DNA from: Verrucomicrobiia bacterium
GTDB lineage: Bacteria; Verrucomicrobiota; Verrucomicrobiia; Verrucomicrobiales; Akkermansiaceae
Direction of reading: 5' to 3'
Assembly (NCBI GenBank): GCA_030431475.1
Contig: JAUIJD010000001.1
Span: 1-64,000 of the forward strand
Length of the DNA: 64,000 nt
Below are positions 4,743 to 19,990 of this stretch, in pieces. Position 1 is the first letter of the stretch; the number at the start of each line of letters is the position of its first letter. Below the pieces are notes generated by a model. That model saw only the letters and a list, made by a program, of their open reading frames with translations, was not told the origin of the DNA and ran no database searches. The position numbers and the translations under genes were made by a program.

Positions 4743-4768
4743 GGCCGGAGGTGAGACGGTTCGGGCTG

Positions 4769-4859
4769 GCATCCCTCCGGGATGCGTGTCCCGCACGCTT
4801 CTATCCGGGGGTGTCGCTTCGCTCAACCCCCGGCTAATGGCTGATGTCCCTCCGGGACG
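4769..4859. repeat. REP-like palindromes on the 5' side of the RAYT gene
   Basis: GCATCCC-tcc-GGGATGC lies at 4769-4785. CCGGGGGT (4805-4812) pairs with ACCCCCGG (4826-4833). GTCCC-tcc-GGGAC lies at 4846-4858. Read on the opposite strand, the order GTCCC hairpin, ATTAGCCGGGGG hairpin mirrors the unit at 4171-4242, so the transposase gene sits inside an inverted pair of REPs. Confidence 0.75.
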
Positions 4860-4887
4860 AAAAATGCCTCCCCGAAGCCCTCTTCAC

Positions 4888-4956
4888 TCGTCCTCTTCAT
4901 CGTCCTCGACCTGGATTTCGAGAACGAGGGACGAGGAGGAGAACGAGGACGAGAAT
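4888..4956. repeat. GA/CT-rich hairpin repeat, copy B
   Basis: A left arm of CTCGTCCTCTTCATCGTCCT, the same CTCGACCTGGATTTCGAG turn as copy A, and a right arm AACGAGGGACGAGGAGGAGA followed by ACGAGGACGAG. It shares an exact 26-base block with copy A (4003-4028 and 4903-4928). Together the two copies bracket the RAYT and its REPs. Confidence 0.75.
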
Positions 4957-4963
4957 CCGGTTC

Positions 4964-5416: not shown

Positions 5417-5648
5417 GCCTGGAAGGTGGCGGATCCGTGCCCCGAGGTCGAGACCGGTCTCGCCTCGCCACTTCGGCGGCCGGGGCCTCGTCGCCTCGCA
5501 CCGTGCGCGTCGCATTTCGTGCCGTCTTTCCTCCTCCGGGGACATCACGTCATGCGCGATGCCTTCGGGCGGCTTGAGCCTCGGACCGGAGGGGCCACGG
5601 CGTTTTGGCGTGACCTCCCTTTTCCCAAGAGATTAGAAGCTCGGCACG

Positions 5649-6431
5649 ATGAAGCTCCCGCATTTGTTCTCGCTGCTGCTGAGCCTGCCCCTCGCGGCCG
5701 GCACCACCGCCCTGCCCGCCGGCCCCGAGCCGGTGATGACGACCACCACCGAGGACGGCTGGGAGCTCACGCTCGGTCTCTACGGCTGGGGCGCCGGGCT
5801 CGAAGGGGATCTCGGGGTGGCGGGCTACACCGTTCCGCTCGACGTCTCCTTCTCCGACATCCTCGACACGCTCGACATGACCGCGATGGGCATGATGGAG
5901 CTGCGCAAGGGTCCATGGCTGATGCAGCTCGAGGGCCTTTACCTGAGAAACTCGATGACCGGAACCGCCTACACTCCGGTCCGCAACACCCCGGTGCAGG
6001 CAAAGCTCACCGCTCAGACCACCCGACTCAGCCTGGTGGGGGGCTACCGCATCGTCGACACCGACTGCACGAAGCTCGACCTGCTCGCCGGCTGCGTCTT
6101 CTACGACATCGACAACGAACTCCGCCTCCTCGGACGGCGTGTCCTCGGCAGCGTCGGCTCCGGCGAAGGCTGGCTCGACCCGGTCATCGGCGTCCGCCTG
6201 AACCAGCGCCTCGGCGGTCCATGGAGCGCCCAGCTTCGCGCCGACGTCGGCGGCTTCGGCGTCAGCTCCGACCTGGTGTGGCAGGCGGTGGCATTGCTCG
6301 GCTACGACCTGGGCGAGTCCTCGACCCTCTTCGTCGGCTATCGCCATGCCGCGGTGGACTACCAGAAAGGCAACTTCCTCTACGACGCCGCCTCCGGGGG
6401 CCCCATTCTCGGCCTGGCCCTCTCGTTCTAA
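5649..6431 (+). CDS. outer-membrane beta-barrel-like protein
   Basis: A 260-residue protein with a signal peptide (cleavage near residue 24) and alternating hydrophobic/polar strands throughout. The last residues (LGLALSF) fit an outer-membrane C-terminal signature ending in Phe. The segment WELTLGLYGWGAGLEGD and a later VGYRHAAVDY resemble small porin-like proteins described only as hypothetical in many Gram-negatives. Substrate unknown. The next gene starts within about 25 bases, so the two are probably co-transcribed. Confidence 0.65.
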   Translation: MKLPHLFSLLLSLPLAAGTTALPAGPEPVMTTTTEDGWELTLGLYGWGAGLEGDLGVAGYTVPLDVSFSDILDTLDMTAMGMMELRKGPWLMQLEGLYLRNSMTGTAYTPVRNTPVQAKLTAQTTRLSLVGGYRIVDTDCTKLDLLAGCVFYDIDNELRLLGRRVLGSVGSGEGWLDPVIGVRLNQRLGGPWSAQLRADVGGFGVSSDLVWQAVALLGYDLGESSTLFVGYRHAAVDYQKGNFLYDAASGGPILGLALSF

Positions 6432-6456
6432 TCGGATGGCGCCCCCGCCCGTGATC

Positions 6457-7752
6457 ATGCAACGCCACCCGCTCACCCACTTCGCGCTGGTCCTCACCGT
6501 CGGTCTCATGCTCACCGGTTGCGCCAACTTCCGGCGACTGGGCGAGAACCTGAAGTTCCTTGAGGAAACCAGTGTCGTCACCGCCCACGTGACCAACACC
6601 TCGGCCCACCACGACGTCTACGGGATGGTGGTCGAGTGGGACCGCGAGGCCAACAAGGTCCTCTCGGCGGACTTCGCCGAAGTCGGCGACGTCGGCATCT
6701 TCGGCTTCTTCGTCAAGGGTGAGGACGACCAGTATCTGATGGCCTTCAGCGATAGCAACGGCAACGGTCGCTACGATTCGTCGGACCCTTCATGGATCCA
6801 CGCGGATGCCTCCGGGAATGCCGTCCCGGTGACCTTCGATCCCGAGACCGACAAGGCGCGGGTCGAAGGCCGGCTGTCATCGGACACCCGGCTCCCCGCC
6901 GACCTCGTCGCCGCCGCCCGGGAGTTCAAGGGCGCCCGCTCCGCCGAGGAAGCGGCCTCCGGGTGGAGGATTCCGGTCGAGCTGGGCACCATCGCCGACC
7001 TCGACGATCCGAAGTTCAGCTCCGAGCGCGGATCCCGCGGCTATTGGGAGCCGGCCGCCTACCCGATGGAGACCGGGATCGGCATCTACTTCCTCGAGAA
7101 ATACGATCCGGACAAGGTCCCCGTGCTCTTCGTCTACGGCGCGGCGGGTTCGCCGCAGGACTGGCGCACTTTCTTTGCCAGGATCGACCGCCGCAAGTAC
7201 CAGCCGTGGTTCCTCCACTACCCGACCGGACGACGGCTCGACGAGCTGGGCTCCTCGCTCAACCGCGGGGTCGGACTGCTCCAGAGCTACTACGGATTCC
7301 AGCGGATGCACGTGGTGGCCCACAGCATGGGTGGCCTGGTGTCCCGCGACTTCATCCTCAAGAACCGGGCCGACGGAAACCGCTACATCGATCGCTTCGT
7401 GACCATTTCGACCCCGTGGGGAGGCCAGGAGTTCGCGAAGTCCGGCGTGAAACGCGCCCCCTCGGTCATTCCCTCGTGGCACGACATGGTGCCGGGCAGC
7501 CCGTTCCAGAAGCATGTCTTCGAACGCCGTCTGCGCGGCAAGGTCGACCACCTCCTGCTCTACGGTCACCACGCGAAGCGGTCGATGACCCTGCCGAAGG
7601 AGAACGACGGGACGGTGAGTGTCGCCAGCCAGACCAACGAACACGCCACCGACGATGCCGTCGAGGTGGTCGGCTTCGACGAGGACCACGTGTCCATCCT
7701 CTCCAACGACGAGGTCATCCGACGCGCCTACCGCCACCTCGAGCGCCCGTAG
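6457..7752 (+). CDS. alpha/beta-hydrolase lipoprotein (lipase/esterase-like)
   Basis: A 431-residue exported lipoprotein: the signal ends LMLTGC with the lipid-modified Cys at 22. An N-terminal beta-rich domain (about 40-190) precedes the hydrolase fold. The nucleophile motif AHSMGG spans about 288-293 with Ser290, and ISTPWGG follows as in lipases acting on acylglycerols. A candidate acid/His pair is DEDHVSIL near the C-terminus. It probably hydrolyses an ester in the envelope or outside the cell; the substrate is not determinable. An alternative ATG lies at 6436, but 6457 gives the proper lipoprotein signal. Confidence 0.8.
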   Translation: MQRHPLTHFALVLTVGLMLTGCANFRRLGENLKFLEETSVVTAHVTNTSAHHDVYGMVVEWDREANKVLSADFAEVGDVGIFGFFVKGEDDQYLMAFSDSNGNGRYDSSDPSWIHADASGNAVPVTFDPETDKARVEGRLSSDTRLPADLVAAAREFKGARSAEEAASGWRIPVELGTIADLDDPKFSSERGSRGYWEPAAYPMETGIGIYFLEKYDPDKVPVLFVYGAAGSPQDWRTFFARIDRRKYQPWFLHYPTGRRLDELGSSLNRGVGLLQSYYGFQRMHVVAHSMGGLVSRDFILKNRADGNRYIDRFVTISTPWGGQEFAKSGVKRAPSVIPSWHDMVPGSPFQKHVFERRLRGKVDHLLLYGHHAKRSMTLPKENDGTVSVASQTNEHATDDAVEVVGFDEDHVSILSNDEVIRRAYRHLERP

Positions 7753-7901
7753 CACCGGGCTTCTGGAAGCTTGCTTCATCCAACGCGATCGAAGACCCTG
7801 CGCAGCATCCCGATGAGCGGGTTTCCCGGTCGGAGACGCCTGTCCAGGCCCCTCTTCTCCAGGATCTCCCGCCCTCGAAATTCCACTCCGAAAGCCGAAC
7901 C

Positions 7902-8240
7902 ATGAAGCCGACGCTCCTGCCGCTGCTCCCGCTCCTTTTGGCGGGGTGCCAGACCGACCCCATGGACCCCGAGGTCGTCGGCCGGAAGATGATCGGCCTG
8001 CAGGAGAAGTTCGACGTCGTGGATACCGACGGCGACGGCTACCTGACCCGCGATGAGATCATCGCCGGCTACGACGAGCTCGAGGTGGTGAACCGAACGC
8101 CGGCGACGGCCGACGCCATCATCGCCTTCTACGACTTCGACAAGGACGGGCGCCTGTCACTCCGCGAAACCCAGTCCGGCGCCGTCACCGGCCCCGAGGA
8201 GGCGGTCCGCCAGTTCGAGTCCGGCCAGCTTTCCCAGTAA
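7902..8240 (+). CDS. EF-hand lipoprotein
   Basis: A 112-residue protein with a lipobox (LLLAGC, Cys16). It carries two EF-hand calcium loops, DTDGDGYLTRDE and DFDKDGRLSLRE, each with Asp/Asn at positions 1, 3 and 5, Gly at 6 and Glu at 12. It should bind Ca2+ in the periplasm or at the outer membrane. It sits between a lipase-like lipoprotein and an outer-membrane protein gene, 9 bases before the latter, so it belongs to an envelope-protein cluster. The function of the binding is unknown. Confidence 0.8.
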   Translation: MKPTLLPLLPLLLAGCQTDPMDPEVVGRKMIGLQEKFDVVDTDGDGYLTRDEIIAGYDELEVVNRTPATADAIIAFYDFDKDGRLSLRETQSGAVTGPEEAVRQFESGQLSQ

Positions 8241-8249
8241 CCCGCCGCC

Positions 8250-9035
8250 ATGCACCATTCCCTTGCCTTCTCCCTCGGCCTCCTCGCCGTCGCCTCCACG
8301 CTGCCGGCCAATGCCGACGGCTCCGACCTCGCCAAGAAGCTCTCCAATCCGGTCTCCGACCTGATCAGCGTGCCCATCCAGGGCAACCTCGATTTCGGCG
8401 GGGGTGTCGCCGGCGGGCAGCGCTTTTACACCAACGTCCAACCGGTCATCCCGATCGCCCTCAACGACGACTGGAACCTCATCTCGCGCACCATCCTCCC
8501 GGTGGTGGATCAGGAAGGCCTCGGCTTCGGAGGAACCGGCGATGCCTTCGGCCTCGGGGACACCGTCCAGAGCTTCTTCTTCTCCCCGAAGGAAAGCGAC
8601 CCGATCTGGGGCATCGGCCCGGTGCTCCTTTTCCCCACCGCCACCGATGCCTTCCTCGGCGGCGACAAGTGGGGCGTCGGCCCGACCGGCGTGGTGCTCA
8701 AGCAGGACGGACCCTGGACCTACGGGGCCCTCGGCAACCACCTGTGGGACGTCGCCGGCAGCGGTTCTTCCCAGGTCAACGCCACCTTCATCCAGCCCTT
8801 CCTCGCCTACAACGCACCGGGCGGATGGACCTTCACCATCAACTCCGAGTCCACCTACGACTGGGCCAACCACCAGTGGACCGTCCCGGTGAACCTGATC
8901 GTCAGCAAGCTGCAACCCATCGGCGGCCAGCCCGTCCAGTTCTTCGGCGGCATCCGCTACTACGTCGAGAAGCCCGACACCGGTCCCGAGTGGGGCCTGC
9001 GCTTCGGCCTCACCTTCCTTTTCCCGAAGAGCTGA
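8250..9035 (+). CDS. outer-membrane transporter-like protein ('neuromedin U' annotation family)
   Basis: A 261-residue protein with a signal peptide (1-22). Family marks are LAKKLSNPVSDLISVP right after cleavage, then NVQPVIPIALNDDWNLISRTILP, and a C-terminal LRFGLTFLFPKS barrel end. Database entries often call this family neuromedin U or transporter; it is most likely an outer-membrane beta barrel of the phenol-degradation MetA type. No substrate can be named. It is followed after 16 bases by an OprB-like porin gene. Confidence 0.7.
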   Translation: MHHSLAFSLGLLAVASTLPANADGSDLAKKLSNPVSDLISVPIQGNLDFGGGVAGGQRFYTNVQPVIPIALNDDWNLISRTILPVVDQEGLGFGGTGDAFGLGDTVQSFFFSPKESDPIWGIGPVLLFPTATDAFLGGDKWGVGPTGVVLKQDGPWTYGALGNHLWDVAGSGSSQVNATFIQPFLAYNAPGGWTFTINSESTYDWANHQWTVPVNLIVSKLQPIGGQPVQFFGGIRYYVEKPDTGPEWGLRFGLTFLFPKS

Positions 9036-9051
9036 ACGCTCGGGGTCACCG

Positions 9052-10236
9052 ATGATGCGCTTCACGCTCCTTGCCTTCGTCGGCGTCCTTTCGGCCGCGC
9101 CGGAGGAAGTCGCGCTGCCCGAGGACATCGGTCGCCAGGTGGAGAACGGCGGGCACCCGGAACAAGCGGCCTCCTTCGATCTCATCGAGCGCTGGAACGC
9201 AGGACGGAAGAAGCTCGAGGACCACGCCGGGTTCAGCTGGACCGCCGGCTACTACTCGGCCGCCCTCGGAGTGCTGGGCGGCAACGGCGTGCCGACCGGG
9301 GCATCCGGCGACCTGACCGTCCAGGGCATCTGGGCGCCGGCGCACCGATGGACGGACAACCCCACGGAACTTCGCTTCCGCCTCCGCCACCGGCACGCCT
9401 ATTTCGGCACGCCGGTCTCCGCGCTTTCCGGGGAAATCGGGGCCCTCTGGGGCGTGATTGACGGCTACAGCAACAGCGGGTTCGAGATCCCCGACTTCTT
9501 CCTCCGACACCAGTTCGAAGCCATCGGACTCGAGCTCCGCTACGGGCAGATGACCATCGACTCCCAGTTCGGGGGGCATCAGCTCGCGAGTTCGAAGAGC
9601 TACTACCTCAACCAGGCCTTCGCCTCGAATCCCGCCGTCGCCTTTCCCCGCTTCGGAGCCGGCTTCACCGCGGTGCAGCGCTTCGACAACGGCTTCAGCA
9701 TCGGCCTCGGCACGACCACCGTCCAGGGCACCCAGAACGGGAACCAGGTCGACCTCGAGTTCGGATCGGACGACCTCTTCCACGCCCTCCAGTTCGCCTA
9801 CGAGTTCGAGGACCGTCAGGAACTGCGCCACCGCCTCATCCTGCTCGGCTGGCACAGCGACTCGGTCGAGGACGCCGCGCAACCCGAAGGTCAGGGCGTT
9901 CAGCTCACCTACGAACGGGCCATCAATGACGAGGGCGGACAGTTCTTCTCGACCCTCTCCTGGTCGGAGGGAGGCGCCGCCCCGGTCGACTACCTCCTGA
10001 CGGCCGGCTTCGGACGCCCGTGCCGCGACGACGACTTCTTCGGCCTCGCCGCCGGCATCGGTCGGGGCTCGGGGAGCAGCGGATCCCTGCAAATGGTACT
10101 CGAGGGTTTCTACCGACGGCAGTTCGGAGAGCATTTCCAAGTCACACCCGACCTGCAGCTGCTCATCGGCGAGGACCTGACCACTGGCCCGGGCGTGCGG
10201 GTCATCGCCGGACTCCGGGCGACCGGGCGCTTCTGA
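9052..10236 (+). CDS. OprB-family carbohydrate porin
   Basis: A 394-residue barrel protein of the OprB family, which lets sugars pass the outer membrane. After a short signal region the sequence shows QAASFDLIERWNAG and FSWTAGYYSAALGVLGG, the usual OprB opening. RHRHAYFGTP, FFLRHQF and a C-terminal GVRVIAGLRATGRF follow. Two ATGs are adjacent (9052, 9055); either could start it. Its position after another barrel gene and before an SBF-type transporter suggests an uptake cluster, although the transporter family differs. Confidence 0.75.
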   Translation: MMRFTLLAFVGVLSAAPEEVALPEDIGRQVENGGHPEQAASFDLIERWNAGRKKLEDHAGFSWTAGYYSAALGVLGGNGVPTGASGDLTVQGIWAPAHRWTDNPTELRFRLRHRHAYFGTPVSALSGEIGALWGVIDGYSNSGFEIPDFFLRHQFEAIGLELRYGQMTIDSQFGGHQLASSKSYYLNQAFASNPAVAFPRFGAGFTAVQRFDNGFSIGLGTTTVQGTQNGNQVDLEFGSDDLFHALQFAYEFEDRQELRHRLILLGWHSDSVEDAAQPEGQGVQLTYERAINDEGGQFFSTLSWSEGGAAPVDYLLTAGFGRPCRDDDFFGLAAGIGRGSGSSGSLQMVLEGFYRRQFGEHFQVTPDLQLLIGEDLTTGPGVRVIAGLRATGRF

Positions 10237-10258
10237 CCGCCCTAAGCCCTCCTCCCCG

Positions 10259-11107
10259 ATGAAGCTGATCCTCGACCTCGGATTGCTGCTGGTGACGCTC
10301 ACCATGATGTTTGCCGTCGGCATCGCGCTTGGCGGCTGCGGCTTTCGCGACGTGTGGAAACGACGCGGCGCGCTGTCGGGGTGGCTGGCGGCGAACATCC
10401 TGCTCCCCCCGGCCGTGGCTCTGGGCGTCGTCTCGGCCACCCGGATGCCGGTCGAGACGGCCGGCGGCCTGCTGCTCATCGCCGCCTGCCCGATCGGAGA
10501 CATCGCCAACCTTTACGTGCTGCGAGCCCGCGGAAGCCTCCCCTTCTCCGTCTCCCTCAACGCCGCGAGCTGTCTGCTCTTTCCACTGACCATGCCGCTC
10601 ACGTTCGCCGCCTACCGCCTGCTCGGGAATCCTCACGATCTCTTCACCACGCCGAAGGTATTCGAGGCGGCTCGCCTTTTCGTCTGTTTCTCGGCGCCGC
10701 TGCTGGCCGGATGGTGGCTGCGCCGACGGCGACCGGACTGGGCTGCGGCCGTCAGCCGCCCGCTCCACCTCGCCACCACCGTCGGAATCCTCGCGCTGCT
10801 CGTGCTCATCGTCGGGATCCAGCTACCGGTGATCCAGGCCGCCGGACTGCGCGCGGCGGCGGGAAGCCTCGCCTTTCTGGTGGTCGGGACCGCCCTCGGT
10901 CTCGGTCTGGCCCCACTGATGAAATCTCCACGCCCCGAATGGATCGCCGGGCTTTGCTGCCTGCCGGTCCGCAATGTCGGAATCGCCGCCCTGGCCGCCG
11001 TCACCCTCGGCGGTCATCTCGGATTCGCAGGCCACGCCGCGATCTACTTCGTCGTTGAGGTGGTGTTCTTCCTGACCCTCTCGTCGCTCCTCGGCCGACG
11101 CTCCTGA
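10259..11107 (+). CDS. bile acid:sodium symporter (BASS/SBF) family transporter
   Basis: A 282-residue inner-membrane protein with eight or nine predicted helices. The core motif AACPIGDIANLYVLRARG (about 78-95) matches the SBF domain pattern in which Pro/Gly break a substrate-binding helix. It probably carries an organic anion with Na+. It is shorter than the usual ten-helix relatives. It converges on the LysR gene, the two coding ends overlapping by 64 bases (11044-11107), so expression of one may interfere with the other. The LysR protein is a plausible regulator but the orientation does not prove it. Confidence 0.8.
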   Translation: MKLILDLGLLLVTLTMMFAVGIALGGCGFRDVWKRRGALSGWLAANILLPPAVALGVVSATRMPVETAGGLLLIAACPIGDIANLYVLRARGSLPFSVSLNAASCLLFPLTMPLTFAAYRLLGNPHDLFTTPKVFEAARLFVCFSAPLLAGWWLRRRRPDWAAAVSRPLHLATTVGILALLVLIVGIQLPVIQAAGLRAAAGSLAFLVVGTALGLGLAPLMKSPRPEWIAGLCCLPVRNVGIAALAAVTLGGHLGFAGHAAIYFVVEVVFFLTLSSLLGRRS

Positions 11108-12039
11108 ACCCACCCCTCCTCGCGCAGCGAACGGCTCAGCGCGGCCGACTCGCGATCCACTTCGAGGACTTCGCGCACGAACTCGTGCGCCTCCTCGGGC
11201 ATCCGGCGATCCTCAAGGCGGATCAAGCCGAACCGCGTCGAGATCTCCGGTGGCAGGCAATCGAGCAGACAGAGCTCTCCCCGACGGACCGCCGGCGCAT
11301 ACAGACTCGGGGGCCCCAGACCCACGGCATCGCTTTCCATCAGCACCTGCTCGAGCAGCGACAGGTCCTCGCAGTGGACCGCCGGATTGAAGCCCTCGCG
11401 TCCCCCGGCCGGCAGCAGGTGATCGAGGACTCGCGGGGGAAGCCGGGAGGTCCCGACCATCGGGTAGGCCATCACGTCCTCCATGCGGACCTCCTCGAGC
11501 TCCAGCAGCGGGTGCCCGCACCGCAGCACCACGCAGGCGGCCTGCGGTTCCAGCGGCACGATCTCGAGGTCCTTCGGGGACAATTCGCTCAACTCGCAGA
11601 TCGCGATGTCGAGATCGCCGTCACGGAGCCGTCTCGCGACGCTCGCCCAGTGGTCGATCGAGACGCGGAAACGCCGGTTCGGGTCGCCCCCGAGACAACG
11701 GGCGATGGTCCTCCCGCCCAGCATGTGCGCCGCGTAGGGCCCGAACCCGATGCGCAGCTGGGGCTGCTGGCGGGCGCTGACCGCCATCAGGTCCCGCTCG
11801 ACCTCGTTGATCCGCGCGATCATGCCCTCGGCCCGCTTCAGGAACACCTCCCCCGCCTCGGTGGGTTCGACCCCCTTGCCCCCACGCTCGAAGAGCGCGA
11901 CGCCGAAATGCTTCTCCAGCCCCTGGATGCTCCGGCTCAACGCGGACTGGCTCAAATGCAACGATTTCGCCGCACGCGCGAAATTTCTCGCTTCGGCGAG
12001 CGCCAAAGCCTGCTCCAAATGGCGGATTTCCAAACCCAT
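11044..12039 (-). CDS. LysR-family transcriptional regulator
   Basis: A 331-residue regulator. Residues 1-60 form the winged helix-turn-helix with FARAAKSLHLSQSALSRSIQ, then LFERGGKGVEPTEAG. The co-inducer domain starts near 90 (LRIGFGPYAA). It would bind DNA as a tetramer and respond to a small molecule. Its start faces the HAD/sulfatase genes across 89 bases, so it may control them from a shared promoter region. Its 3' end overlaps the BASS transporter gene. The C-terminal 40 residues are unusually Arg/Glu-rich. Confidence 0.9.
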   Translation of the reverse strand: MGLEIRHLEQALALAEARNFARAAKSLHLSQSALSRSIQGLEKHFGVALFERGGKGVEPTEAGEVFLKRAEGMIARINEVERDLMAVSARQQPQLRIGFGPYAAHMLGGRTIARCLGGDPNRRFRVSIDHWASVARRLRDGDLDIAICELSELSPKDLEIVPLEPQAACVVLRCGHPLLELEEVRMEDVMAYPMVGTSRLPPRVLDHLLPAGGREGFNPAVHCEDLSLLEQVLMESDAVGLGPPSLYAPAVRRGELCLLDCLPPEISTRFGLIRLEDRRMPEEAHEFVREVLEVDRESAALSRSLREEGWVQERRPRSDERVRKNTTSTTK

Positions 12040-12128
12040 GCGGTAAATGCATCACACCCATTCCAACAATGCAATGGACGCATGAGGGGACTTCATGGCA
12101 TAAGCCACGCTCCTCCTTCAGTGATCCC

Positions 12129-13094
12129 ATGAAACGCTGCGCCATCGTCATCTTGCTCTACCTGCCCCTGCTGGCAGAACCTCTCCCCTCCTGGAATCCG
12201 GGAAAGAACCGTGACGCGATCATCGGCTTCGTGGAGAAGGTCACCACGCCGGGCACTCCCGATTTTGTCGAACCGGCCGCGCGCATCGCCACCTTCGACA
12301 ACGACGGCTGCCTGTGGAGCGAGCAGCCGATGTATTTCCAGCTGATCTACGCCATCGACCGGATCAAGGCGACGGCCGACGAGCACCCCGAGTGGAAGGA
12401 AACGGAGCCCTTCGCCTCGGTGCTGAAGGGCGACACCAAGGGTGCGCTGGCCGGAGGTGAGAAGGGGCTTCTCAAGATGATCGCCGCCACTCATGCGGGG
12501 ATGACCACCGAGGAGTTTCGGGCGGCGGTCTCCGACTGGCTCTCGACCGCGCGTCATCCGAAGACCGGACGCCCCTACAACGAGATGATCTATCAGCCGA
12601 TGCTCGAGCTGCTGGAGTATCTCCGGGAGAACGGCTTCAAGACCTTCATCGTCTCCGGGGGCGGCATCGACTTCATGCGCGTCTTCGTGGAGGACGCCTA
12701 CGGCATCCCTCCGGAGCAGGTGGTCGGCAGCAGCATCGCCGCGAAATACGAGGTGCGCGATGGCAAACCGGTGCTGGTCAAGACCCTCGACTCCCACTTC
12801 ATCGACGACAAGGAGGGCAAGCCGGTCGGCATCCACCAGCACATCGGCCGGCGCCCGATCTTCGCCGCCGGGAACTCCGACGGTGATTTCCAGATGCTGG
12901 AGTACACGACCGCCGGCGACGGCGCCCGCTTCGCGATGATCGTCCACCACGACGATGCCGACCGCGAGTGGGCCTACGACCGCGATTCCCACATCGGCAA
13001 GCTCGCCCGCGGCCTTGATGAAGGCCCGAAACGAGGATGGACCATCGTCAGCATGAAAGACGAGTGGAAGGCCATCTACCCCGCCTCCGAGTAA
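12129..13094 (+). CDS. HAD-superfamily phosphatase-like protein, exported
   Basis: A 321-residue protein with a signal peptide (MKRCAIVILLYLPLLAEPLP). The HAD core appears as ATFDNDGCLWSEQP (motif I, Asp nucleophile at the first D), then FIVSGGG (motif II) and AAGNSDGDFQMLEYT (motif IV acidic pair). A phosphate ester is the expected substrate, hydrolysed in the periplasm. It is followed after 30 bases by a sulfatase gene; HAD and sulfatase genes occur side by side in other bacteria, suggesting linked scavenging of phosphate and sulfate esters. The ATG at 12129 fits the signal peptide better than 12069. Confidence 0.8.
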   Translation: MKRCAIVILLYLPLLAEPLPSWNPGKNRDAIIGFVEKVTTPGTPDFVEPAARIATFDNDGCLWSEQPMYFQLIYAIDRIKATADEHPEWKETEPFASVLKGDTKGALAGGEKGLLKMIAATHAGMTTEEFRAAVSDWLSTARHPKTGRPYNEMIYQPMLELLEYLRENGFKTFIVSGGGIDFMRVFVEDAYGIPPEQVVGSSIAAKYEVRDGKPVLVKTLDSHFIDDKEGKPVGIHQHIGRRPIFAAGNSDGDFQMLEYTTAGDGARFAMIVHHDDADREWAYDRDSHIGKLARGLDEGPKRGWTIVSMKDEWKAIYPASE

Positions 13095-13124
13095 GCTCTC
13101 CCAAAAACGAACAACCGAACCAAC

Positions 13125-14711
13125 ATGAAACCAACACATCTGATGGCCGTCCTTGTCGGCGGCCTCATCGCCACTGCCTCCGCGCAGGACGCGAAAAAGC
13201 CAAACATCCTGGTCATCTGGGGTGACGACATCGGCGTCTGGAACATCAGCCACATGAACCGTGGCATGATGGGCTACAAGACGCCCAATATCGACCGCAT
13301 CGCCAAGGAAGGCATCAGCTTCACCGACTACTACGGTCAGCAATCCTGCACCGCCGGTCGTGCCGCCTTCCTGAACGGCAGCGTGCCGGTTCGTACCGGC
13401 ATGACCAAGGTCGGCCTTCCCGCCGCTCCGCAAGGTTGGCAGAAGACCGACGTTACCATCGCCGGCGTGCTCAAGGGTCAAGGCTACGCCACCGGCCAAT
13501 TCGGCAAGAACCACCAGGGCGACCGTGACGAGCACCTGCCGACCAACCACGGCTTCGACGAGTTCCTCGGGAACCTCTACCACCTCAATGCGGAAGAGGA
13601 GCCGGAGGACCGCGACTACCCTGCCGACATGAAACTCGCCGACGGCTCGACCTTCCGCGAGAAGTTCGGTCCCCGTGGCGTCATCAAGGCTTCTGCCGAC
13701 GGCAAGATCGAGGACACCGGTCCGCTCACCAAGAAGCGGATGGAAACCGTTGATGAGGAAACCCTCGCCGCCGCCAAGGATTTCATCCAGCGCCAACACG
13801 AAGCCGGGAAGCCCTGGTTCTGCTGGTGGAATGGCACCCGCATGCACTTCCGCACCCACGTCAAGGATGAGCACACCGGCATCGCCGGCAAGACCGGCAA
13901 CGAGTACCACGACGGCATGGTCGAGCACGACATGCACGTCGGCGAGCTGCTTGCCCTCATCGATGAACTCGGCATCGCCGACAACACGATCGTTCAGTAC
14001 AGCACGGATAACGGAGTTCACTACAACACCTGGCCGGATGCCGGCACCACGCCCTTCCACGGTGAGAAGAATTCCAACTGGGAAGGCGCCTTCCGCGTTC
14101 CCTGCTACGTCCGCTGGCCCGGCAAGTGGCCCGCCGGCGCCACCGTCAATGGTATCGTCTCACACGAAGACTGGCTTCCCACCTTCGCAGCCGCCGCCGG
14201 CGCTCCGAACATCAAGGAGGACCTCCGCAAGGGAGTCGAACTGATCGGTCGCACCTACAAGAACTACATTGATGGCTACAACATGCTCCCATACCTTGAG
14301 AAGGCGGGGACTTTCGAGACCATCGATGCCGATCTTGAGGCCTGCCCCCGCCAAGAGTTCATCTATGTTACGGACGGAGGCGAGGTTTGTGCCATTCGCG
14401 TCAAGGACTGGAAGGCGACCTATCTGGAGAACCGCGCGAGCGAGCTCCAGATTTGGCGGGAGCCTTTCATTAAGTTGCGCACGCCGCATCTCTACCACCT
14501 GCGTCGCGATCCCTTCGAGAAGGCCCAGATCGGCTCGAACACCTACAACGACTGGTTCATGGACAAGGTCTACCTGCTGGCGCCAATGCAGGTCGTCGCC
14601 TCCAAGTTCCTCATGACCATGAGGGACTATCCGCCGAGCCAGACTCCGGGCGACTGGAGCCTCTCCACGCTGGAGTCCCAGATCAAGGACATGGCTCCTT
14701 CCACGCGCTGA
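13125..14711 (+). CDS. arylsulfatase-type sulfatase
   Basis: A 528-residue secreted sulfatase with a signal peptide ending at about residue 20 (ASA-QD). The Ca2+ site begins at Asp34/Asp35 (WGDDIG). The catalytic motif is C75-T-A-G-R79, where the cysteine must be converted to formylglycine by a sulfatase-modifying enzyme not present here. Further conserved blocks are GKNHQGD, HGFDEF and STDNGVHYNTWPDAG. It cleaves sulfate from aromatic or sugar sulfates in the periplasm. It shares a short gap with the HAD gene and is followed by a strong terminator. Confidence 0.9.
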   Translation: MKPTHLMAVLVGGLIATASAQDAKKPNILVIWGDDIGVWNISHMNRGMMGYKTPNIDRIAKEGISFTDYYGQQSCTAGRAAFLNGSVPVRTGMTKVGLPAAPQGWQKTDVTIAGVLKGQGYATGQFGKNHQGDRDEHLPTNHGFDEFLGNLYHLNAEEEPEDRDYPADMKLADGSTFREKFGPRGVIKASADGKIEDTGPLTKKRMETVDEETLAAAKDFIQRQHEAGKPWFCWWNGTRMHFRTHVKDEHTGIAGKTGNEYHDGMVEHDMHVGELLALIDELGIADNTIVQYSTDNGVHYNTWPDAGTTPFHGEKNSNWEGAFRVPCYVRWPGKWPAGATVNGIVSHEDWLPTFAAAAGAPNIKEDLRKGVELIGRTYKNYIDGYNMLPYLEKAGTFETIDADLEACPRQEFIYVTDGGEVCAIRVKDWKATYLENRASELQIWREPFIKLRTPHLYHLRRDPFEKAQIGSNTYNDWFMDKVYLLAPMQVVASKFLMTMRDYPPSQTPGDWSLSTLESQIKDMAPSTR

Positions 14712-14764
14712 GATCCTTCCCGGGACGACCTGCACTCCCTTGAAGCGGGTCGTTCTTCCCTTCG

Positions 14765-14804
14765 CCGCGCTTTGGACTTTGCTTCCGAAGCGCGGCACTT
14801 TTTT
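14765..14804 (+). terminator. Rho-independent terminator after the sulfatase gene
   Basis: CCGCGCTT (14765-14772) pairs with AAGCGCGG (14788-14795), followed after CAC by six T (14799-14804). A weaker hairpin, ACGACC with GGTCGT, lies just before it. This closes the HAD-sulfatase unit and separates it from moxR. Confidence 0.8.
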
Positions 14805-14891
14805 ATCCCGGGTGCCTGATAAAGACTTCCACCCGTGCCTGCCTCGGGTCTCTTCCGCACCCTTGCGTAAGATCTCTCCAATTCCGTCCCC

Positions 14892-15851
14892 ATGAATCCC
14901 CGCGACGCCATCCTCCGCATCTCCGACGCCATGAATGCGGCTGTGATCGGCCAGGAGACGGTCGTCGAACGAATCCTCGTCGCCCTGCTCGCCAACGGCC
15001 ACCTGCTGATGGAGGGCCTGCCGGGCGTGGCAAAGACCCGCTCGATCAAGACCCTGTCGAGGCTCATCGAGAGCGACTTCAGCCGGGTCCAGTTCACGCC
15101 CGACCTGTTGCCGTCGGATGTCAGCGGCTCGGACATCTACCGCGAACAGACCGGCACCTTCGATTTCCAGCCGGGGCCGATCTTCGGCAACCTGATCCTC
15201 GCCGACGAGATCAACCGTGCCCCGGCGAAGGTGCAGGCCGCCCTCCTGGAGGCAATGGAGGAGCGCCAGATCACCGTCGCCGGGACGACCCACAAGCTGC
15301 CCGATCTCTTCCTCGTCCTGGCCACGCAAAACCCGATCGAGCAGGAAGGCACCTACCCGCTGCCCGAGGCGCAGATGGACCGCTTCCTGCTCTACGTCCA
15401 CGTTCCCTATCCGCCCCCGGAAAACGAGGCGGCGATCCTGCGTCTGGTCCGCGGAGAAAAGGTCGGGACCGCCGCCGAGCCGCCGCCGGCAGTTCCGCAG
15501 GACCTCATCTTCCAAGCTCGTCAGGAGGTGAACGAGATCCACGTCGCCGAAGCAGCGGAACAGTACATCGTTGATCTCGTCGTCGCGACGCGCCATCCGG
15601 AGAAGCTCGACGACGAACTGGCGAAGTGGATCCGCCTCGGAGCCAGCCCGCGCGGCACCATCGCCCTCGACGCCGCCGCCCGGGCGCATGCCTGGCTGCA
15701 GGGGCAGGACTTCGTATCCCCCGACAACATCCGCGCCGTCGCCCCCGCCTGCCTCGCCCACCGCATCCACCTCACCTATCAGGCCGAGGCCGCCGGCAAG
15801 ACCCGCAGCGAGGTCGTCGAGGCGTTGTTGGAGAAGGTCGTGGCGGTGTAG
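14892..15851 (+). CDS. MoxR-family AAA+ ATPase
   Basis: A 319-residue AAA+ protein. Walker A is GLPGVAKTR (42-50) and Walker B LILADEINRA (101-110), followed by sensor region VLATQNPIEQEGTYPLPEAQ and a C-terminal lid. MoxR proteins act as chaperone-like ATPases on partners with VWA domains. Here the DUF58 and Bat proteins downstream are the obvious partners. In most genomes the DUF58 gene follows directly; here a four-helix-bundle ORF and repeat arms lie between them (15852-16415). Confidence 0.95.
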   Translation: MNPRDAILRISDAMNAAVIGQETVVERILVALLANGHLLMEGLPGVAKTRSIKTLSRLIESDFSRVQFTPDLLPSDVSGSDIYREQTGTFDFQPGPIFGNLILADEINRAPAKVQAALLEAMEERQITVAGTTHKLPDLFLVLATQNPIEQEGTYPLPEAQMDRFLLYVHVPYPPPENEAAILRLVRGEKVGTAAEPPPAVPQDLIFQARQEVNEIHVAEAAEQYIVDLVVATRHPEKLDDELAKWIRLGASPRGTIALDAAARAHAWLQGQDFVSPDNIRAVAPACLAHRIHLTYQAEAAGKTRSEVVEALLEKVVAV

Positions 15852-15903
15852 AGTCTCGTCCTCCTCCTCGTCCTCCTCCTCGTTCTCGTCCCTCGTCCTC
15901 GAC
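15852..15903. repeat. left arm of 35-bp perfect inverted repeat (copy C)
   Basis: CT-rich arm right after the moxR stop. Bases 15868-15902 are the exact reverse complement of 16382-16416, an uninterrupted 35-base match. The preceding CTCGTCCTCCTC units repeat the pattern. The enclosed 479 bases contain the four-helix-bundle ORF. Confidence 0.9.
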
Positions 15904-15927
15904 CACCCACAGCACACGCCCCACCCC

Positions 15928-16419
15928 ATGGAGCCCCGCTCGCCAAACCGGACTCGCTTCGACCACGAGAATCTCGATGTATACCGACTCGAGCTCGAGT
16001 TCCTCGCCTGGGTCACGCCACTTCTCCGGAAGATCCGGAAGGAGGCGCCCGGCTTGCACCGGGAAGCCTGCGACCAACTCGATCGAGCAAGCGTCTCCGC
16101 ATTGCTCAACACCGCCGAGGGCAACGGCAAACGTCAAACCCGCCAACGAGCCAGGTTCTTCGACGACGCCCGAGGATCGGCGGTCGAGTGCGCGGCCCGC
16201 CTTGATGCGATGGTTGCGAAGGCACTTTGTCGTCCCGACGAAGTGGAGGACGGGAAGCGGATGCTCCTCCGGGTGGTCTCGATGCTCTCGAAGCTGGTCG
16301 GGCGGTTCGACCGCTCCGGGGAAGGGCTCCGAGACGAGGAGATGAGCTACCAGGTTGGCTTGGAAGCCGGTGATGCTGCGATCGAGGACGAGGGACGAGA
16401 ACGAGGAGGAGGACGATGA
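15928..16419 (+). CDS. four-helix-bundle protein (S23/IVP-type family)
   Basis: A 163-residue helical protein of the family first named for ORFs in 23S rRNA intervening sequences. Marks are FDHENLDVYRLELEF at the start, LDRASVSALLNTAEGNGK in the centre, and FFDDARGSAVECAARLD followed by a final helix. Its biochemical role is unknown; relatives form pentameric helical bundles. It lies inside an exact 35-bp inverted repeat. The right arm encodes its last dozen residues (Asp/Glu/Arg/Gly-rich), and its stop (16417-16419) overlaps the ATG of the DUF58 gene. No clear ribosome-binding site precedes it. Its position inside the moxR operon is unlike the usual order, so it looks inserted. Confidence 0.8.
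   Translation: MEPRSPNRTRFDHENLDVYRLELEFLAWVTPLLRKIRKEAPGLHREACDQLDRASVSALLNTAEGNGKRQTRQRARFFDDARGSAVECAARLDAMVAKALCRPDEVEDGKRMLLRVVSMLSKLVGRFDRSGEGLRDEEMSYQVGLEAGDAAIEDEGRERGGGR
16379..16418. repeat. right arm of 35-bp perfect inverted repeat (copy C')
   Basis: GA-rich arm; 16382-16416 exactly complements 15868-15902. Bases 16379-16407 are also identical over 29 bases to 18917-18945 in copy E. The arm contains AGGAGGAGGAC just before the DUF58 ATG at 16416 and so supplies its Shine-Dalgarno sequence. Confidence 0.9.
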
Positions 16420-17327
16420 GTGCTCGCATCACGATCGACCTCGATCATCTTCTCCTGCTCAAGGCGGAAGCCCGCGGGTTCTCGTTCCAGCCAAGGCAAC
16501 CCGTCGGCTCGCTCCTCGCGGGTCGGCACCAGTCCCGTCTCCGGGGTCGTGGACTCGCCTTCGAGGAATTGCGCCACTACCACGCGGGCGACGACATCCG
16601 AACCATCGACTGGCGCGCTACCGCCCGCCTCCGTTCACCCCACGTCCGCGTCTTCGCCGAGGAACGCGAGCGACCCGTCCTGCTCGTCATCGACCAGCGC
16701 TCGCCCATGTTCTTCGGCAGCCGCCGGGCGATGAAGTCGGTGACCGCCGCCGAACTCGCCGCCCTCGCCGCCTGGCGTGTCCTCGACGTCGGCGACCGCG
16801 TCGGCGGCATCGTCTTCAATGAGTCGGAAATGGTCACCGTGCGCCCGAACCGCGGCCCCACCCAGGCCCTGCGGCTCTTCCATGAGATCGAGCGTTTCAA
16901 CCATCGGCTCGCGGCGGGAGACCCGCCGGAGGGTCCGGTGACGCTCAACGCCGCACTCGAAGCGGCGGTCCAGCAGGCAAAGCATGATCATCTGGTGCTC
17001 GTGATCACCGATCTCGACGACGCCGATGGCACCACCGGCGAGCTCATCAGCCGGATCGGGGCGCACAACGACGTGTTCGTCGCCGCGGTCTATGATCCCA
17101 TGGGCATCCAACTCGCCGGAGGGTCCGGCATGCGGGCCACCGACCGCGGACGGAGCTGGGACATTCCAGCCGGCAGCGGCTTTGAAAAGGCGTTTCGAAG
17201 GGCTTTCGAGGGGGTCCTCGAGCATTGGCGAACGATCTTCCGCGACCTCCGCATCCCGCTTTTCCCCGTTTCCACCGCCATCTCGGTGATCGATCAGATC
17301 CACGAACTCCTCGGCGCCCGAACATGA
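16416..17327 (+). CDS. DUF58 domain protein of the MoxR/Bat operon
   Basis: A 303-residue protein with the DUF58 signature HYHAGDDIRTIDWRATAR near residue 50 and a VWA-like region (LLVIDQRSPM) where the first metal-ligand Asp is kept but the second Ser is Pro. It has no membrane segment, so it is likely cytoplasmic or membrane-associated through partners. With MoxR it forms the conserved core of aerotolerance-type operons. Its start codon overlaps the stop of the four-helix ORF, and its ribosome-binding site is part of the repeat arm. Confidence 0.9.
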   Translation: MSARITIDLDHLLLLKAEARGFSFQPRQPVGSLLAGRHQSRLRGRGLAFEELRHYHAGDDIRTIDWRATARLRSPHVRVFAEERERPVLLVIDQRSPMFFGSRRAMKSVTAAELAALAAWRVLDVGDRVGGIVFNESEMVTVRPNRGPTQALRLFHEIERFNHRLAAGDPPEGPVTLNAALEAAVQQAKHDHLVLVITDLDDADGTTGELISRIGAHNDVFVAAVYDPMGIQLAGGSGMRATDRGRSWDIPAGSGFEKAFRRAFEGVLEHWRTIFRDLRIPLFPVSTAISVIDQIHELLGART

Positions 17328-17350
17328 GATCGAACCACCTCCTTCCCCCT

Positions 17351-17411
17351 CGTCCTTCGTCGTCGTTCTCGTCCTCGACACCGGGCGAGGACGAGGGACG
17401 AGAAGGAGGAC
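17351..17411. repeat. GA/CT-rich hairpin repeat, copy D
   Basis: Left arm 17351-17377 (CGTCCTTCGTCGTCGTTCTC and on), turn ACACCGGG, right arm 17386-17411 with GAGGACGAGGGACGAGAAGG. The right arm ends AAGGAGGACG immediately before the ATG at 17413 and provides a strong Shine-Dalgarno site. Confidence 0.8.
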
Positions 17412-17412
17412 G

Positions 17413-17871
17413 ATGAAACCCATGACCGACGACCCATCCAGCCTCGACAGGCTCCACGACATCGTCGTTCCCGAGCCGGTGTCGTGGTGGCCGATGGCGC
17501 CGGGCTGGTGGGTCCTCCTCGCCCTGCTTTTGTCGGCGGGCATGGCTCTCGGGATCCGCGGGTATCTGCGCTGGCGAGCCGATGCCTACCGGCGCGCCGC
17601 GCTCCTGGAACTCGACCAGACCGACAACGCCCGCCAGGTGGCCGTCATCCTCCGTCGCACCGCCCTTGCCATCGCACCAAGGGAATCCATTGCCGCTCTT
17701 CGTGACGACGCCTGGATCGACTGGCTCGCCGAACGGTCCCCGCACCCGCTCCCCGACTCCATCCGCCCGGTGCTCACCCGATCGCTCTACGTCGCGCAGT
17801 CTCCCGCCGACCTTGGCGAACTCCGGGAGTTCGCCCGCCACTGGATCCGTCAACACACCCGCCCATGCTGA
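17413..17871 (+). CDS. DUF4381 family membrane protein
   Basis: A 152-residue protein with the DUF4381 opening LHDIVVPEPVSWWPMAPGWW, one membrane helix (about 28-48), and a cytoplasmic helical tail containing ALLELDQ and the AWIDWLAE block. The family is found almost only between DUF58 and BatA genes, so it probably bridges MoxR/DUF58 and the VWA membrane proteins. Its stop overlaps the next start (ATGCTGA). Its start is preceded by GGAGGA from repeat copy D. Confidence 0.85.
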   Translation: MKPMTDDPSSLDRLHDIVVPEPVSWWPMAPGWWVLLALLLSAGMALGIRGYLRWRADAYRRAALLELDQTDNARQVAVILRRTALAIAPRESIAALRDDAWIDWLAERSPHPLPDSIRPVLTRSLYVAQSPADLGELREFARHWIRQHTRPC

Positions 17872-18890
17872 GCTTCGCCCACTTCTGGCTGCTTCTGCTG
17901 GCTCCACTGCCGTGGCTGGTCTGGCGATTCGCGCCGTCGAGGGCCCCGTCCCGCGTGGCGGTCTGCGTGCCCTTCGGTCACCGGCTTGAGCAGGCGCTCG
18001 CATCCGGTCCGCTGAGCCCGAAGACCGGCGGCAGGCGCCTCGGCATGCTTTGGCCGATGCTCGTATGGCTCTTCGTGCTTCTCGCCCTCGCCCGGCCGCA
18101 GTGGATCGAACCGCCCATCGAGAAGATGGTTCCCACCCGCGACCTGCTGCTGCTCGTCGATCTTTCCGGCTCGATGGATCAGCAGGACTTCACCAACTCC
18201 GAAGGCAAGACGGTGAGCCGCCTCGAGGCGGTGAAGGAGATCCTCGGCGATTTCCTCGAGAAGCGGAAAGGCGACCGGGTGGCACTGGTGGTCTTCGGCA
18301 ACTCGCCCTTCCTGCAAGCCCCCTTCTCCACCGACCTTTCCCTTTCCCGCGAGCTCCTCGACGAGACCGCCGTCGGCATGGCCGGCCCGAAGACCGCCCT
18401 CGGCGATGCCATTGGCCTCGGCATCCATCTCTTCGAGGAAAGTGAGGCTCCGGCCAGGACCATCATCGCACTCACCGACGGCAACGACACCAAGAGCCAG
18501 GTGCCGCCGGTCGAGGCCGCGCGCATCGCCTCGGATCGCGGCATCCGGATTCACACGGTCGCCATCGGCGACCCGACCACCGCCGGTGAGGACAAGCTCG
18601 ACCGGGAGACGCTCGACCAGGTGGCGCAGAGCGCCAACGGAAAGTCCTTCTTCGCCGCAGACCGAGACGAACTCGTCGGCATCTACGACGAGCTGGATCG
18701 CATCGAGACCCGCGAGGTGAAGACCATCAGCCATCGCCCGCGCCATGACATCTTCCATCTCCCGCTTCTCGCGGCACTGCTGACCTCAACAATGTCCCGA
18801 CTCATCTCCATCCGAAGTGCGCGGATGGTGGAAACTCACCGCCGCCCCCTTCGCGTCCACCCCGCCACCGGCGAACTCGAACTCTCATGA
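17865..18890 (+). CDS. batA: BatA-type VWA domain membrane protein
   Basis: A 341-residue inner-membrane protein. Two N-terminal membrane segments (about 5-22 and 60-77) precede a VWA domain whose MIDAS motif D99-L-S-G-S103 is intact, with later Thr/Asp ligands (TALGDAIGLG, LTDGNDTKSQ). The C-terminal membrane helix is short (FHLPLLAALLTSTM) and followed by an Arg/His-rich tail. BatA proteins help resist oxidative or envelope stress in Bacteroidetes and spirochaetes; the mechanism is unclear. Repeat copy E starts at its stop codon. Confidence 0.85.
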   Translation: MLSFAHFWLLLLAPLPWLVWRFAPSRAPSRVAVCVPFGHRLEQALASGPLSPKTGGRRLGMLWPMLVWLFVLLALARPQWIEPPIEKMVPTRDLLLLVDLSGSMDQQDFTNSEGKTVSRLEAVKEILGDFLEKRKGDRVALVVFGNSPFLQAPFSTDLSLSRELLDETAVGMAGPKTALGDAIGLGIHLFEESEAPARTIIALTDGNDTKSQVPPVEAARIASDRGIRIHTVAIGDPTTAGEDKLDRETLDQVAQSANGKSFFAADRDELVGIYDELDRIETREVKTISHRPRHDIFHLPLLAALLTSTMSRLISIRSARMVETHRRPLRVHPATGELELS

Positions 18891-18947
18891 TCGTTCTCGT
18901 CGCTCGTCTTGGCAATCGATCGAGGACGAGGGACGAGAACGAGGACG
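18891..18947. repeat. GA/CT-rich hairpin repeat, copy E
   Basis: Left arm TCGTTCTCGTCGCTCGTCT (18891-18909), a loop with CAATCGATCG, and right arm AGGACGAGGGACGAGAACGA and on. It begins directly after the batA TGA. Its right side is identical over 29 bases to the right arm at 16379-16407. Confidence 0.85.
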
Positions 18948-18962
18948 CCTGAACCGACCCGC

Positions 18963-19874
18963 ATGACCGAACCCTTCCAGTTCCTCCGCCCCGCCGCGCT
19001 GCTTCTGGCGCCGGTGGTGGTGCTTCTGTGGTGGCTGTGGCAGCGCCGCGCCGATCCGCTGCGGGGATGGCGGGCCCAGATGGATCCCGAGATTCTCGAC
19101 GCTCTGGTCGACCACTCATCAGGCGGCCGGCGACGGGCGTGGCCGACTCTCGCCGCGTGGCTGTTTGGCGTCCTTGCCATCGCCGGTCCCTCGTGGCGCC
19201 CCGAGCCGAGTCCCTTCGCCGAGGATTCAACGCCACTGGTGATCCTCCTCAAGGCCGACCTCAGCATGGACACCCCCGATCCCGAGCCCTCGCGGATCGA
19301 GCGGGCCCAGCTCAAGATCCGTGACCTCGCCGAGGCGCGGACGGGCCAACCGCTCGGCTTGATCGCCTACTCTGGCAGCGCCCACCTCGTGCTGCCGCCG
19401 ACCAAGGACACCACCGCCGTCGCCACCATGGCCTCGGAGATCTCCCCGGACATCATGCCCGAGCCCGGCGACCGGGCCGACCTCGCCATCGCCCGGGCCG
19501 CCCGGCTACTCAAGAATCAAGCGGGCAGCCTTCTGATCGTCACCGACACCGCCAGCGCGCCGACCCACGCCCTCGTCGAATCGTGGAAGAACGCCGGCTC
19601 TCCCGACGTGCAGATTCTCGCGATCGCCCCTCCTGCAGCTTCGGTCGAACCGCTCGAGCCTCTGGCGAAGTCGCTCCGCGCGACCCTCGTGCCGATGAGC
19701 ACCGACGATGAGGACATTGACGAGATCGTCCGCAACGCCGCCCGGACTCCAGTGGCACGCGATGCGGAGGGCAAGGCCCGTCGCAAGGACGACGGGTATC
19801 TCCTGGTCCCCCTCATCGCGGCCTTCGCCCTGCTTCCCTTCCGCCGCGAAACCCCGAACCCGTCCGAATCGTGA
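18963..19874 (+). CDS. BatB-like VWA domain membrane protein with altered MIDAS
   Basis: A 303-residue relative of BatB: two N-terminal membrane helices (about 8-26, 62-76), a VWA-like domain, and a C-terminal helix near 282-295. Where BatB usually has D-x-S-x-S, this protein reads D99-L-S-M-D103, as if two residues were lost, so the second serine ligand is missing. The following PSRIERAQLKIRDL is typical BatB. It may have lost metal binding while keeping a structural role. The start at 18963 avoids the repeat-encoded Arg/Thr-rich upstream extension. Confidence 0.8.
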   Translation: MTEPFQFLRPAALLLAPVVVLLWWLWQRRADPLRGWRAQMDPEILDALVDHSSGGRRRAWPTLAAWLFGVLAIAGPSWRPEPSPFAEDSTPLVILLKADLSMDTPDPEPSRIERAQLKIRDLAEARTGQPLGLIAYSGSAHLVLPPTKDTTAVATMASEISPDIMPEPGDRADLAIARAARLLKNQAGSLLIVTDTASAPTHALVESWKNAGSPDVQILAIAPPAASVEPLEPLAKSLRATLVPMSTDDEDIDEIVRNAARTPVARDAEGKARRKDDGYLLVPLIAAFALLPFRRETPNPSES

Positions 19875-19892
19875 TGCAAGGCACACTGCGAG

Positions 19893-19990
19893 ATTCGTCC
19901 TCCTCCTCATCCCTCGTTCTCGTCCTCGATTCTCTGCGCCTTCGAGGACGATGGACGAGAACGAGGAGGAGAACGAAGAGGAGGGGGAGA
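19893..19990. repeat. GA/CT-rich hairpin repeat, copy F
   Basis: Left arm 19896-19929 (CGTCCTCCTCCTCATCCCTC and on), loop TTCTCTGCGCCT, right arm from 19942 (TCGAGGACGATGGACGAGAA), trailing into a degenerate GA-rich run with GAACGAAGAGGAGGGGGAGA. It fills the gap between the BatB-like and TPR genes. Confidence 0.8.

Follow-up and report, generated by a model that had tools for sequence, protein, structure and literature searches.

An S23 gene in a hairpin of tandem words between moxR and DUF58, and the link between arm word length and the S23 protein branch

The moxR–DUF58 element and its described relatives

The systems closest to the locus considered here are the IVS elements of 23S rRNA genes that carry an ORF of the S23/IVP family. 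In the IVS of Coxiella, as the pertinent passages of PMC4990558 describe it, tandem GACAGAT heptamers precede the S23p ORF, the ends of the element form a 28-bp stem, and the 5' site of RNase III lies at the first heptamer repeat; the same passages still call unclear what S23/IVP proteins and IVS elements do. Tandem 7-nt words are also described between genes, namely GGGAATC in Xanthomonas and GGGGAYT in Nostoc, with 70 inverted heptamer pairs in one Xanthomonas genome (PMC4692102, in its sections on these repeats), and TAACTGA in the Beggiatoaceae (PMC4679880, in the corresponding part). The likeness of these repeats to the arms of S23 genes is one of description, and term searches of the two texts return neither S23 nor helix bundle or four-helix. 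Among the matches listed in the open PMC literature, no paper links S23 genes outside rRNA with inverted arms of tandem words.

The locus lies in a window of 64,000 nucleotides (positions 1 to 64,000 of contig JAUIJD010000001.1, assembly GCA_030431475.1, from a Verrucomicrobiia bacterium), to which all positions refer. The moxR gene (AAA_3 by Pfam, 14892-15851, plus strand) is followed, on the same strand, by a left arm of CT-rich hexamers (TCGTCC, TCCTCC, TCGTTC; 15856-15902), an S23/IVP four-helix ORF of 163 residues in the loop (15928-16419), a right arm of GAGGAC-type hexamers (16382-16420) and the DUF58 gene (by Pfam, 16416-17327). The original prediction, that a perfect inverted repeat of 35 bp encloses an S23/IVP-type ORF between moxR and DUF58, is borne out in each of its parts. 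Over 35 positions, bases 15868-15902 read exactly as the reverse complement of 16382-16416. When the 700-nt region is dinucleotide-shuffled 100 times, the longest exact repeat of this kind averages 8.8 and never exceeds 11; the extended arms (15864-15902 and 16382-16420) cover 39 nt at 97%. The ORF matches PF05635 (23S_rRNA_IVP, 51.1 bits with a cut-off of 33.8) and TIGR02436 (four helix bundle protein, 46.3 bits). Its AlphaFold (AF2) model has a pLDDT of 84, and the best PDB matches of the model are 2gsc and 2rld, followed by Avd (4dwl) and ribonucleoproteins of diversity-generating retroelements (DGR). The model has its four-helix fold in common with Avd (4dwl, 8ub7), a protein that works with reverse transcriptase and RNA; the likeness is one of fold, no reverse transcriptase or template repeat being identified within the unit itself, and the similarity of PF05635 to Avd is already in print (PMC10053308, in the part that treats it).

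The right arm encodes the C-terminal codons of S23 and includes GGAGG, in a purine-rich stretch ahead of the DUF58 start, and the S23 stop TGA (16417-16419) overlaps the DUF58 ATG (16416-16418) as ATGA, so that the arm gives the ribosome-binding site and overlaps the start of DUF58, as had been claimed. Both arms are runs of degenerate hexamers (GAGGAC, GAGAAC etc.), and RNA folding predicts that they pair as a stem (z of -7.5 against 20 shuffles).

Set beside the S23p-bearing IVS of 23S rRNA, as far as the published description of Coxiella reaches, the window element has in common the S23 ORF in a stem loop of complementary ends able to form a long stem around it, the sense orientation with the host transcript (moxR, S23 and DUF58 are all on one strand) and the sporadic occurrence. 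It differs in lying in an mRNA operon rather than in rRNA, in having hexamers, oriented opposite to the Coxiella heptamers, where heptamer words would stand before the ORF, and in that junctions of its type are also taken by ORF-less and GxxExxY versions. Heptamer words are seen here as an IVS feature for Coxiella only and are not an established defining feature. The kinship with the IVP ORFs of 23S rRNA genes that had been proposed gains support from these Coxiella heptamers (PMC4990558, same passages). The window element is not an insert in a 23S (or 16S) rRNA gene, there being no Rfam match in the window, nor is there one at the 12 other S23 loci of the genome; 20 of the 80 S23 loci from named genomes, compared with Rfam, gave one tRNA and nothing else. 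A 23S rRNA location of S23 elements was sought and not found in one scan with short rRNA stretches, a weak search.

Hairpins of the same words, without an ORF, stand close by on the plus strand. Three are in the same operon as moxR, S23 and DUF58: one between DUF58 and the next gene (17350-17413) and, both identified by eye, one at the end of the ORF 17865-18890 (18890-18946) and one after the ORF ending at 19874 (19895-19979). Two more, of the same word family (3938-4048 and 4887-4953), bracket an IS200/IS605-family transposase gene (4299-4739, minus strand), which lies 11 kb from the S23 element and has inner palindromes of its own (4173-4211 and 4822-4860); the two hairpins have the common centre CCTCGACCTGGATTTCGAGAACGAG. 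The S23 element itself is without a Y1 transposase gene. An 18-mer core of the window arm has nine matches with at most 2 mismatches in the 4.73-Mb genome, and seven of the nine fall within 3218-19961 of the window, which looks like local spread. In a 240-kb background, drawn from 20 sampled stretches that do not include the window, 2 of the 15 inverted repeats are ORF-less word hairpins. A dispersed palindrome of another repeat family, GGAGCGCCGATTATGAAATCGGC, is also found in this genome (L331 581-708 and 2297-2385; L332 9663-9789).

Inverted arms and the occupancy of junctions

The genome of the window holds 14 PF05635 matches, which make 13 S23 genes, two adjoining matches on contig C42 being taken for a single gene that is broken. 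Inverted arms of 35-39 nt with 74-97% complementarity surround 10 of the 13 genes, that is, the window copy and 9 of the 12 others, and L003, L012 and L014 have weak inverted arms only. It had been proposed to look for other four-helix ORFs between arms of the same sequence; inverted arms are indeed present at nine of twelve, but the arm sequence is locus-specific and only the tandem-word structure is common to the loci. A single arm sequence for all copies is ruled out by the nine occurrences of the core, seven of them in the window, and by the other words at the other S23 loci. Period 7 reaches the threshold at only 5 of these 12 loci. All 13 S23 genes have at least one same-strand neighbour with a Pfam match (upstream at 11, downstream at 10, both at 8), where Pfam was given the longest sense-strand ORF on each side and sense-strand ORFs were the whole scope; the upstream match of L006 is 649 nt away, and the downstream match of L014 falls below the cut-off and is left uncounted. 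The host gene pairs by Pfam include pheS-pheT, cysD-cysN, metK-ahcY, nrdB-nrdA and inositol monophosphatase-ispF. One non-hexamer S23 gene of this genome (L011) lies between DUF58 and BatA.

The same structure is found well beyond this genome. We compare the left flank of each ORF with the reverse-complemented right flank of the same locus and of other loci, with the direct orientation as control. At 72 S23 loci of the genus the own median is 21.9, the cross-locus median 11.6 and the direct-orientation median 11.95, and 54 of the 72 lie above 17.2, the 95% value across loci (by a count on the printed list). None of these 72 loci passes the cross-locus 99% criterion, nor does any of the 37 GxxExxY loci of the genus (maxima 220 and 240), because the cross-locus sets contain overlapping or orthologous loci; the comparison in the genus is therefore based on the medians and, for S23, on the count above the 95% value. 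The genus has 81 PF05635 matches, of which 73 served as targets and 72 were scored: L013 was merged with L009, L057 and L068 lie at contig ends, five further matches were omitted, and L134, with a short flank, went unscored. In the phylum, 29 new S23 loci among the matches listed have an own median of 19.3 against 10.5 across loci; 19 exceed the 95% value and 3 the 99% value, with 6 and 1 in direct orientation. In named public genomes of several phyla (the named set), 77 S23 loci give 19.1 against 9.9, with 53 above the 95% value and 31 above the 99% value (13 and 6 in direct orientation). These 77 were kept from the 80 best of 589 confirmed matches, L199, L221 and L250 being omitted throughout, the period and self-match tests included. 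The broad S23 alignment A1 had no conserved stretch for scanning, so that the narrower alignment A2 of one subfamily was used in its place, and the named set is therefore biased to that subfamily and to best matches.

Among the hexamer subfamily, to which the window S23 belongs, only 11 of 28 loci exceed the cross-locus 95% value because all of them have similar words; 28 of 29 loci were scored, L270 being cut by a contig end. Some S23 loci are without a good inverted repeat, for example L112, L072 and L117. As to the words themselves, the mean self-match of the flanks peaks at lags 7 and 14 in the genus, phylum and named sets. An 80% self-match over 21 nt is reached by near-ORF flanks in 39 of 144 (genus), 20 of 58 (phylum) and 40 of 154 cases (named), 82 of these 99 at period 7, and by none of the far flanks (0/140, 0/58 and 0/146). 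Of the 154 arms of the named set, 89 were periodic enough for typing as AG or CT. Read in the sense of S23, the left arm has AG-type heptamers in 35 cases and CT-type in 2 (6 ties), and the right arm is the reverse complement of the left in 33 cases against 4 (9 ties). The Coxiella heptamer, in the form given in that report, fits this set, since GACAGAT repeated reads AGATGAC, an AG-type heptamer. In some S23 subfamilies (L014, L074, L135; L072, L115, L116) the ORF itself includes the word repeats, which are thus translated (as TDPTDPTDP or ISNLKS, for example), and one locus (L113, G014:C77) has two different S23 genes about 1.3 kb apart.

The next matter is whether the element comes and goes at one place. 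The moxR–DUF58 junction can be compared in 10 genomes with the ortholog, the window's included: S23 is present in 2 (G000 and G006), 3 have different arms around a GxxExxY ORF (G014, by TIGR04256; G017 and G003, by PF13366), and 5 are clean. G000 groups with G014, with local support of 0.98 in the DUF58 tree and 0.93 in the MoxR tree (in the latter the row of G006 is in the wrong frame and its position void; the DUF58 tree is unaffected), so that the G000 copy of S23 is surrounded by carriers of GxxExxY. Over 119 residues the S23 proteins of G000 and G006 share 69% identity, a value close to the 63% of DUF58, and we take it that either an old S23 element has been replaced repeatedly or the element was re-acquired. 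At pheS-pheT, 18 genomes divide into S23 in 4, GxxExxY in 1, a hairpin without ORF in 3 (one of them cut short where its contig ends), a single arm in 4, a clean junction in 1 and other or decayed junctions in 5. At inositol monophosphatase-ispF, again in 18 genomes, S23 is present in 1, a word hairpin lacking an ORF in 7, a lone arm in 2 and no words in 6, with 2 not comparable; the classes at both of these junctions were read by eye from printed junctions. Orthologous junctions thus hold S23, GxxExxY, an ORF-less hairpin, a single arm or nothing, which supports the insertion unit that the original prediction had proposed; mobility itself would be one reading of this varying occupancy. Fused ORF-less hairpins and clean sites, the two kinds of empty site that had been anticipated, are both present, and the outcome that would have spoken against the prediction, the ORF at the same place in all relatives, is not what we see, five of the ten moxR–DUF58 junctions being clean.

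The GxxExxY loci of the genus are likewise in inverted arms (37 of 49 PF13366 matches used), with an own median of 26.7 against 12.4 across loci and 13.1 in direct orientation. Their flanks have a weaker period of 9 nt, with a mean self-match of 0.346 at lag 9 and only 2 of 74 flanks passing the 80% criterion. Two observations from this class may be added. In G003, whose moxR–DUF58 junction carries GxxExxY, an ORF-less hexamer hairpin lies near moxR (L341, reverse complement 195-278) and is possibly a remnant; in G017 the word of the GxxExxY element recurs downstream as an ORF-less hairpin (L340, reverse complement 457-998 and 3685-3798), which would be local spread in the GxxExxY class too.

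Word length follows the S23 branch

Of the 387 genomes sampled from the phylum, 56 have homologs of the window S23, and its subfamily is represented here by 30 loci (the best per genome, window included). In the stronger arm, 27 of the 30 have period 6 and 3 no clear period. The other S23 loci have mostly period 7 (46/71 in the genus, 20/29 in the phylum and 50/77 in the named set, in total 116/177); of the remainder, 46 have no clear period, 10 have period 8, 4 have period 9 and 1 has period 6. Period 7 is thus found in 116 of the 131 other loci with a clear period, and the sole hexamer in this group, L117, belongs to the branch of the window S23. Of the 123 loci with two periodic arms, 121 have one period in both. 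The same period threshold is passed by far flanks at 3/67, 3/29, 1/69 and 6/28 loci, and those of the hexamer subfamily have period 6 in 4/28.

On a protein tree of 207 S23 domains, periods 6 and 7 are separated by 1 change, where 200 shuffles give a mean of 26 and a minimum of 21 (144 rows); with all periods there are 12 changes, and the shuffles have a mean of 39.7 and a minimum of 36 (158 rows). Word length, 6 or 7, is tied to the branch of the S23 protein. Grouped by flanking genes in common, the hexamer subfamily occupies 21 neighbourhoods, with period 6 in 19 of them, and it is therefore not one inherited locus; among its sites are moxR-DUF58 in one genome from another family, a miaB-like gene alongside guanylate kinase, and a saccharopine-dehydrogenase/decarboxylase pair. 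Three shared-neighbour groups contain both hexamer and heptamer S23 genes, among them the moxR/DUF58 group (hexamers L253 and L256; heptamers L070, L106, L111, L129 and L179). Since both kinds stand beside homologous genes, it is not the neighbour that sets the period. In L256 (G083, a distant genome of the same taxonomic order but another family) the hexamer S23 lies between moxR and DUF58, by independent insertion or very old inheritance. Non-hexamer S23 genes also lie beside DUF58- or moxR-type genes (L011, L070, L106, L111, L129 and L179), and operons of this type seem to be favoured as sites.

Within a period class the words themselves track the protein weakly. With shared-neighbour loci removed, word identity is 0.643 among near and 0.607 among far relatives (p=1e-5), near standing above far in 83, equal in 15 and below in 41 of 139 loci; for the period-6 subset p=0.053. 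The two arms of one locus resemble each other more than they do the arms of relatives, the own value being above the near one in 124, equal in 9 and below in 6 of the 139. The tandem arrays have medians of 33 nt (period 6, 47 arms), 32 nt (period 7, 187 arms), 49 nt (period 8, 15 arms) and 31 nt (period 9, 7 arms).

Proposed mechanism and competing explanations

The reading that we prefer, to which we give a probability of roughly 70%, is that the window unit is an insertable hairpin element akin to the S23-bearing IVS of 23S rRNA, here placed in a protein-coding operon, and that the S23 protein recognises its own arms. Such an element would consist of two inverted arms of degenerate tandem words enclosing an S23 gene that is read in the direction of the host operon. 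Within the mRNA, these arms are predicted to pair into a stem of about 35-39 bp, which may, by analogy with rRNA IVS, where others have shown it, be a substrate of RNase III. The insert could be tolerated through its short stop-start gap, through being transcribed and translated with the operon, and through being cut out of or within the message; at the ATGA overlap, ribosomes that finish S23 might unfold the stem and begin on DUF58. Recognition of its own arms would fall to the S23 protein, whose S23/Avd fold has a known member (2gsc) that is a pentamer, and the link between branch and word length may be read as the trace of this recognition. The ORF-less hairpins would then be non-autonomous copies or remnants that spread locally.

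Two other explanations would leave the S23 gene in the hairpin and give it another role. TRAP, for instance, binds spaced triplets, and in a TRAP-like manner S23 could be an autoregulator that binds the tandem words of its own message, the hairpin controlling translation of the operon with little or no mobility. The fixed spacing of the words, an S23 fold like that of 2gsc and a right arm that covers the DUF58 start region all agree with such a role, but presence, absence and exchange at three junctions do not, and we consider it unlikely. The fixed number of words per protein ring that TRAP would suggest finds no support in the array lengths, although this is a weak test, arrays shorter than about 30 nt being below detection. 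REP elements, which go with RAYT transposases, are short palindromes between genes with many ORF-less copies, and S23 elements resemble them in both respects; the arms could accordingly be REP- or MITE-like palindromes moved in trans by an IS200-like transposase of RAYT type, with S23 as a passenger trapped in the loop. The transposase gene at 4299-4739 between two hairpins of the same word family would fit, as would the ORF-less hairpins of the background sample and those in 3/18 and 7/18 genomes at two orthologous junctions. Yet S23-type elements differ from REP/RAYT in their tandem words, their locus-specific arms and an inner ORF of S23 or GxxExxY in place of a transposase, and the transposase gene in the window has palindromes of its own. 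A passenger, moreover, would not show a word length that follows its branch, as is seen in 19 of 21 subfamily neighbourhoods, and we regard the passenger role as quite improbable.

One could also deny the insertion altogether, and suppose that slippage and palindrome correction shaped an old, vertically inherited gene. The words are of low complexity, and the identity of the G000 and G006 S23 proteins beside that of DUF58 makes the copy look old; against this stand the clean junctions (5/10) and the GxxExxY elements (3/10) at the same place, and S23 genes at many unrelated loci, in other phyla too, are enclosed in a structure of the same kind. Vertical inheritance with slippage is already disfavoured by the clean and exchanged junctions, and we hold it to be very improbable.

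Returning to the insertable hairpin that recognises its own arms, a wider form of this reading can be put forward tentatively, at somewhat less than even odds. S23 proteins may belong to widespread, self-recognising mobile hairpins, in which each branch reads its own word length (6, 7, perhaps 9), inserts or maintains arms in rRNA as well as at the junctions of operons, and competes for these sites with a PD-(D/E)XK-like GxxExxY class having words of about 9 nt; the 'heptamer repeats' of bacteria would be ORF-less copies. The related S23 genes in word hairpins of many bacteria suggest that insertable hairpin elements form a large class that has drawn little notice, and their junctions offer many natural sites of presence and absence. 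The link between branch and word length gives a direct clue to what S23 binds, and, if the reading is true, it would tie inserts in rRNA to the hairpins of operons, and perhaps to the heptamer repeats between genes as well.
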